Source of the DNA: an uncultured Clostridia bacterium
GTDB lineage: Bacteria; Bacillota; Clostridia; TANB77; CAG-508
Length of the DNA: 42,139 bases
Direction: 5' to 3'
Assembly: GCA_947626555.1 (NCBI GenBank)
Contig: CANQSP010000010.1
Location: 1-42,139, forward strand
The translations under genes were made by a program, and so were the position numbers. Of this stretch, positions 1-11,206 are shown one piece after another. The stretch's first letter is position 1. The number at the start of each line of letters is the position of its first letter. The notes beneath the pieces were generated by a model, which had not been told where the DNA came from, did not search any database, and saw only the letters and a list, made by a program, of their open reading frames with translations.

Positions 1-126
1 GATTTTGCTACACACTTCCTCCACGTCACACCTCATGGTGGAACGCTTGTGTTTCACTATGTGGTTGGCGATGTATATCTCCACTTCGGACTTTCACCGA
101 TTAACTAAACGACATGCCCGTCGCAC
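1..126 (-). mobile_element. Group II intron, 5' end (partial, runs off left edge)
   Basis: On the minus strand a sequence starting GTGCGACGGGCATGTCG follows the T-rich tail of the rnpB terminator. It continues with CGGTGAAAGTCCG and GTGAAACACAAGC. GUGYG at the 5' splice site and a GGUGAAAGUCC-like segment in domain I are typical of bacterial group II introns. Only the first 126 bases are present; the rest of the ribozyme and any reverse transcriptase lie outside the window. Insertion immediately after an intrinsic terminator is the known habit of class C introns, so class C is an inference from position, not from a maturase sequence. Confidence 0.72.
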
Positions 127-160
127 AAAAGAAAGAACTCGGTCTTATGCCGAGTTTCTT
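127..160 (-). terminator. Intrinsic terminator of rnpB
   Basis: Read on the minus strand, an AAACTCGG / CCGAGTT stem with a short loop is followed by TCTTTCTTTT. It ends exactly where the group II intron begins, so the T-tract doubles as the 5' exon of the intron. Confidence 0.85.
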
Positions 161-165
161 CATAT

Positions 166-522
166 ATAAGTAAATCTGTAAGCCGGGTTCTGTCGTGAAT
201 AGTCATTTATCTACTTTCTATATTACTATAGAACTTACAGCCACCGAGTTAGAAGATGACGAGCAGTCTTAGCCTTCTTTTACGGTGTTGCTCCAGATGG
301 GGTTTGCATATACGCTCTATGTCACCACAAAGCTGGTGAGCTCTTACCTCGCCTTTTCACCCTTACCTAAACACATATTACATTTAGGCGGTAATTTTCT
401 GTTGCACTTTCCTTAAGGTTTCCCTCACTGGACGTTATCCAGCATCATTGCTCTATGGAGCCCGGACTTTCCTCGTACGCAACCTTTCGGTATTGCTATA
501 CGCGACTATTCAATTTACTCAT
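166..522 (-). ncRNA. rnpB: RNase P RNA (catalytic subunit)
   Basis: This is the ribozyme that removes 5' leaders from pre-tRNAs. The minus strand contains the diagnostic 5' block GAGGAAAGTCCGGGCTCC with the following ATAGAGCA, the GGTAAGGGTGAAAAGG region, and the 3' block ACGACAGAACCCGGCTTAC. Helix P1 (GAGTAAAT with ATTTACTT) and helix P2 (GAATAGTC with GACTATTC) can be paired directly, which sets both ends to within a few bases. The gene has its own promoter and terminator and is not part of the neighbouring operon. Confidence 0.97.
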
Positions 523-10999: not shown

Positions 11000-11206
11000 T
11001 TAAATCCCCACTTTAGCCGTAAGATGAAGAAATTTTTAATACCTGTTTGCACAGGTGGGTGTCTTGTTGAATGCTCCTGGGTTTCTTACTATATAGTAAG
11101 CTTACACGCCACATTCAAAGGCGGACTCCCTTATTTTATTTGTTGGTAATAAAATTTCAGTCTACACGTACCATGCAGGGAAAATTGATAACTATTTGAT
11201 TAGGTT
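11000..11206 (-). ncRNA. ssrS: Probable 6S RNA
   Basis: This 200-base stretch encodes no protein, yet has its own promoter and terminator. The minus strand folds as a long interrupted hairpin. Outer pairing is TTTCCC with GGGGA, then GAAATTTT with AAAATTTC. An open central region follows, with a small ACCTGT-GCAA-ACAGGT hairpin on its 3' side, then GGGAGTC with GACACCC, TTGAATG with CATTCAA, and a terminal CTTACTAT/ATAGTAAG hairpin. A closing stem, central bubble and terminal stem is the 6S architecture that mimics an open promoter and sequesters RNA polymerase holoenzyme. The AAGAAACCCAGGAGCA segment looks like clostridial 6S, from memory. Ends are approximate. Confidence 0.62.

Follow-up and report, generated by a model that had tools for sequence, protein, structure and literature searches.

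A mobile group IIC intron with a class C maturase/reverse transcriptase (RT) of the E. rectale/MarathonRT type has almost certainly retrotransposed into the terminator stem-loop of rnpB in this genome. The window, i.e. the whole stretch of DNA that was analyzed, is an entire contig (C10; 42,139 bases). It comes from a 75.9% complete draft genome that comprises 1.45 Mb in 65 contigs, and the intron lies at the very edge of the window:

163..521, minus strand: rnpB, bacterial class A RNase P RNA (Rfam RF00010, 270.7 bits)
131..161, minus strand: intrinsic terminator hairpin of rnpB, the target stem of the intron (MFE hairpin; conserved in the closest relatives)
127..130, minus strand: TTTT, end of the T-tract and predicted IBS1 in the 5' exon (all seven copies in this genome end in TTT)
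1..126, minus strand: first 126 nucleotides of a group IIC intron, domain I (six other genomic copies; intron 5' ends of relatives)

The rnpB terminator and the intron junction

The class A RNase P RNA gene was identified at 521..163 on the minus strand with high significance (RF00010, E 2e-87). The window also encodes a 6S RNA at some distance (11001-11184, minus strand; RF00013, 101.8 bits). Downstream of rnpB the minus strand reads ATGAAGAAACTCGGCATAAGACCGAGTTCTTTC-TTTT, where the hairpin (161..131) is followed by the T-tract (130..127). Folding of the 45 nucleotides upstream of the intron junction yielded a minimum free energy of -12.0 kcal/mol for this hairpin, and a homologous hairpin is conserved behind rnpB in the closest relatives. 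The intron directly abuts the T-tract and starts at base 126 of the minus strand with GTGCGACGGGCATGTCGTTTAGTTAATCGGTGAAAGTCC...; from there, its 5' end (GTGCGACGGGCATGTC..., or in the reading down to the contig end GTGCGACGGGCATGTCGTTTAGTTAATCGG...) extends to base 1. Its first bases, GTGCGAC, agree with the conserved group II 5' end GUGYG, as do those of six other copies in the same genome. The intron is oriented in sense relative to rnpB, and both the RNA gene and its terminator are left intact. A preliminary description of this DNA had already reported GTGCGAC adjoining the T-tract of the rnpB terminator, and its coordinates proved right, except that the contig end cuts the feature short, with the remainder beyond base 1 and the 3' end in another contig (C37; L013).

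Contig C37 starts with an intron 3' end (domain V/VI), and after approximately 65 further bases comes rluA, a gene of a pseudouridine synthase family. The domain V in C37 scores 34.8 bits (RF00029), and the match begins at model position 3. In the two closest relatives (G008 and G020; rnpB 93-94% identical), rnpB and its terminator are followed by a convergent rluA without any intron, and the flank in C37 is 81% identical to the region downstream of rnpB in G008. Because this flank matches the arrangement in G008, the intron can be placed between the rnpB terminator and rluA. Judged by synteny with the relatives, rather than by a read spanning the intron, C37 is the partner contig of C10.

Class of the intron and its copies at terminators

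By sequence comparison, the element in the window is a group IIC intron, another member of a known family. A complete relative in the same genus (L047; G001:C79, 2357..503, approximately 1,855 nucleotides) has its 5' end at 2357, domain V at 577-508, and its 3' end at about 503. It contains the ribozyme motifs D1-D4 (RF02001 and RF01998) and domain V (RF00029) as well as an open frame of 437 residues (about 425 amino acids from its ATG), whose product is a group II RT/maturase (TIGR04416, 440 bits). The same model matches three such relatives (L047, L049, and L050) with 437-443 bits, and RVT_1 and GIIM were identified in L047 and L049. An endonuclease domain was not found in the 437-residue frames of the relatives, which carry RVT_1 and GIIM only. 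The best PDB relatives of the L047 RT are MarathonRT from a IIC intron (7uim_D, 529 bits), the GsI-IIC RT (6ar1, 389 bits), and LtrA (169 bits). Going by its best relatives, domain content, and site choice, the RT of the full-length relatives is of class C.

In the genome bin that contains the window (a draft, 75.9% complete), no intact RT of the intron family found at rnpB was detected. Two RVT_1 matches in this bin were rejected as the RT of the intron. The match in C11 (G000:C11:13517-13657; L127) is a decayed class C RT fragment of 46 amino acids with 57% identity and one stop, and that in C21 is a defence-type RT (L057:697-1833; 379 amino acids; RT_UG13b, 359 bits). The latter is a candidate member of the anti-phage DRT family.

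The same intron 5' end occurs seven times in this genome and always at the junction with a terminator T-tract, so that the 126 intron bases in the window are no chance match. The other six 5' ends show 99% identity over 67-77 bases. Every copy stops at a contig end after 67-126 bases; such breaks are expected when assembly runs into a long repeat whose copies hardly differ. In all seven cases the exon ends in TTT, preceded by T or A, and the host sites are otherwise unrelated (lysS, a T-box/thrS leader, a histidine kinase gene, and others). Related intron 5' ends were present in 15 of 96 other genomes. The 5' end in the window is 83-90% identical to those of its relatives, which are introns with D1-D4, an RT, or domain V, and a search of a plasmid collection retrieved a single, distant relative (Monoglobus, 78%). 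With a terminator defined as a hairpin of at most -7 kcal/mol plus four or more T among the final eight bases, a hairpin and T-rich tail precede all 21 distinct 5' ends tested (seven from this genome and 14 distinct related ones from other genomes) versus 2.9% of 4,000 random positions drawn within the same loci. This result supports the earlier view of a class C group II intron that chooses terminator stem-loops.

At the opposite end of the intron, ten domain V matches were found in this genome. Nine of them share a common 3' end (...GGGAATAAATAAAATAATTATTTATTCTCTACTCG, with A behind the boundary) and match domain V/VI (RF00029) at the level of the RNA family, two above the gathering score (44.6 bits) and the others cut at contig ends; the 3' boundary (CTACTCG/A/T) could be shifted by 1-2 nucleotides. 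The tenth match, in C32 (L008:1501-1867), is the 3' end of a different group II intron (domain V, 47.5 bits), upstream of which lies the C-terminal part of a putative maturase reading frame with no Pfam match. Six of the seven 5' ends pair with a 3'-end contig predicted by synteny, and the copy behind lysS (C52) is unpaired. Besides the rnpB insertion, five further 5' ends each have a 3' partner and an intron-free homologous site in relatives. For example, the filled site in C43/C34 reads ...GCCGATTTTTTATTT before and AAAAAAAATTGACATAAG after the intron versus GCCGATTTTTTATTTTCTAAAAATTGACATAAG in the intron-free state. The global alignments of some empty sites (C1/C26 and parts of others) are too diverged for base-exact 3' boundaries. 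The preliminary description had named domains V/VI, the RT class, and an intron-free site as the means to check its proposal, and all three speak for it: domains V/VI were located in nine copies, one of them in the partner contig of C10, the full-length relatives encode a class C RT, and the rnpB sites of the closest relatives are free of introns.

In the structure of the E. rectale IIC intron, EBS1 lies immediately behind a C in the D1d loop and pairs with the last four exon bases (PMC10190682). When the EBS1 loop was picked by analogy with this published structure, six introns together formed 22 of the 24 possible EBS1-IBS1 pairs, a value reached by 8 of 720 permutations; the copy in the window is not readable in this region. 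For the family in the window, the predicted EBS1 is AAAA or AAAU, preceded by a C, in the D1d loop around intron position 180. As knowledge of the structure guided the choice of loop, the pairing result is support and not proof. It suggests that the 5'-exon bases co-vary with the predicted EBS1 loop, in keeping with the short EBS1-IBS1 pairing of class C.

Probable route of insertion and alternative explanations

It is established that class C introns target terminators (PMC4424553, PMC8919778, PMC10190682). IIC introns find their target through the shape of the stem-loop and short pairings with the T-tract, and they insert behind the terminator by reverse splicing; they have no endonuclease and use the replication fork for priming (PMC4424553, PMC10190682, PMC7161350). 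If the intron behaved like this known family, its RNP would have recognized the shape of the rnpB terminator hairpin and paired, EBS1 with IBS1, at the 3' end of the T-tract. Reverse splicing directly after the T-tract and copying into DNA at the replication fork would then have produced a sense-oriented intron that separates the rnpB terminator from the convergent rluA, with both genes and the terminator intact.

The same placement mechanism would also apply if the intron at rnpB were a dead or ORF-less remnant, or had suffered a large internal deletion that kept its ends, and were no longer mobile. We consider this rather unlikely. The copy could be ORF-less or defective, because its interior is unassembled and an intact RT of its family is missing from the bin. 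Moreover, it carries a private substitution (G to A at intron position 49), the copies in some relatives are truncated, with unrelated ORFs adjoining the 5' end (L053, L054), and the decayed 46-amino-acid IIC RT fragment with its stop codon in C11 would be in line with such decay. However, both ends of the copy are present and nearly identical to the ends of the other copies, and the contig breaks in the way expected of a long, nearly identical repeat.

A further alternative is an assembly artefact at the junction. In a draft of 65 contigs, where every copy of the intron ends at a contig end after 67-126 nucleotides, reads of a multicopy repeat might have been joined erroneously to the end of the rnpB contig. 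Yet seven independent junctions all fit the terminator rule, six of the seven 5' ends have a 3' partner contig predicted by synteny, and the private base of the rnpB copy suggests assembly from its own reads. We thus attach hardly any weight to an assembly artefact.

We give just as little credence to the idea that the intron homes specifically to rnpB, by retrohoming like the introns of classes A, B, ML, and CL, and is driven by read-through from this gene. The shared orientation of the intron and rnpB would fit this idea, as would two more independent pairs of an rnpB terminator and a IIC intron in other organisms, but the RT is of class C without an endonuclease domain and the other copies in this genome lie behind the unrelated terminators listed above. 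Furthermore, the succession of rnpB, terminator, and intron was found in 1 of 391 genomes of the class, namely this genome only, and in two genuine further cases in a collection of 84,980 species; as the pattern demands exact matches, these counts are lower bounds. A strict version of the pattern had no match in genome_contigs, and a looser version had three. One of these, from a Bacillota MAG, is a complete IIC intron with RT and domain V behind rnpB (L125:2044-4412), whose 5' end, GTGCGCCCGGCATGG, is presumably GsI-like. Another, from a Synergistaceae MAG, is a IIC 5' end behind rnpB that is cut at the contig end (L126:1195-1636). The third match, in Vibrio (L124), was discarded as a chance hit, since neither rnpB nor an intron exists there. 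With one case among the class genomes and two independent cases elsewhere, the rnpB terminator is thus a tolerated and recurrent site, and nothing shows a preference for it. The suggestion in the preliminary description that a highly transcribed essential RNA gene would make rnpB a safe target finds no support as a reason for the choice of site, considering the copies behind other terminators and the single occurrence in 391 class genomes. That description also proposed that read-through from rnpB could drive intron expression; class C introns behind terminators have been argued to be rarely transcribed (PMC8919778).

Conditional terminators and comparison with known introns

As any terminator is taken, IIC introns also land behind conditional ones. 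One copy (C56/C19; start of C56 in L003 and start of C19 in L016) immediately follows the terminator of a T-box leader and lies upstream of thrS, which encodes TGS and tRNA_SAD domains. The leader scores 76.3 bits (E about 1e-15 to 4.5e-17), which is below the gathering score of 93, and the conserved T-box sequence is present. This insertion is absent in G008 and G020. In another genome of the same class (G238), IIC-like 5' ends lie behind two T-box-like terminators (L128 and L130; pattern match only), and insertions at T-box terminators thus appear to recur. Short inverted repeats (TAAACTATTGGGGACGGGGTTAAATAGTTTA) near thrS (L016:1-350), which also occur in L106:1739-1962 and other loci of the genus, are possibly a small non-autonomous mobile element.

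Because the T-box terminator is conditional, transcription of an intron behind it could depend on tRNA charging. If so, tRNA charging would gate transcription of the copy between the T-box terminator and thrS and perhaps also the mobility of this copy, and expression of thrS would need transcription through the intron or its splicing; at rnpB, leaky termination of an abundant RNA would feed intron expression. We regard this scenario as improbable. The T-box/thrS copy is more intriguing than the one at rnpB, and it could be used to ask whether a riboswitch turns such introns on. Taken together, the insertions illustrate terminator targeting in a clean and well-controlled way: close relatives differ in several filled and empty sites, and the covariation of EBS1 with IBS1 can be read. 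They also indicate that the terminator of even an essential RNA gene is a tolerated IIC target.

Among known systems, the E. rectale IIC intron has the closest solved RT (MarathonRT; PDB 7uim, PMC10190682; 529 bits over residues 14-434). It likewise is a IIC ribozyme that targets a DNA stem-loop (PMC10190682), its IBS1 consists of the last four bases of the T-rich spacer, and its EBS1 is found in the D1d terminal loop after a C. In contrast, the letters of EBS1 and IBS1 differ between the families, and the present draft genome (1.45 Mb) contains at least seven to nine copies, including the one behind rnpB. GsI-IIC from Geobacillus stearothermophilus (PDB 6ar1) is also a highly proliferative IIC intron with a class C RT, but this RT is more distant (389 bits) and the 5' end sequence of the intron is different. 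B.h.I1 and the class C introns of Robart et al. (2007), as far as they are portrayed in PMC4424553 and PMC8919778, share the insertion directly after intrinsic terminators and the lack of an endonuclease domain. Measured against these accounts, nothing substantive differs, and our genome adds a further host and site. The insertion at rnpB is a clear but ordinary case, and its choice of site is normal for the IIC family.
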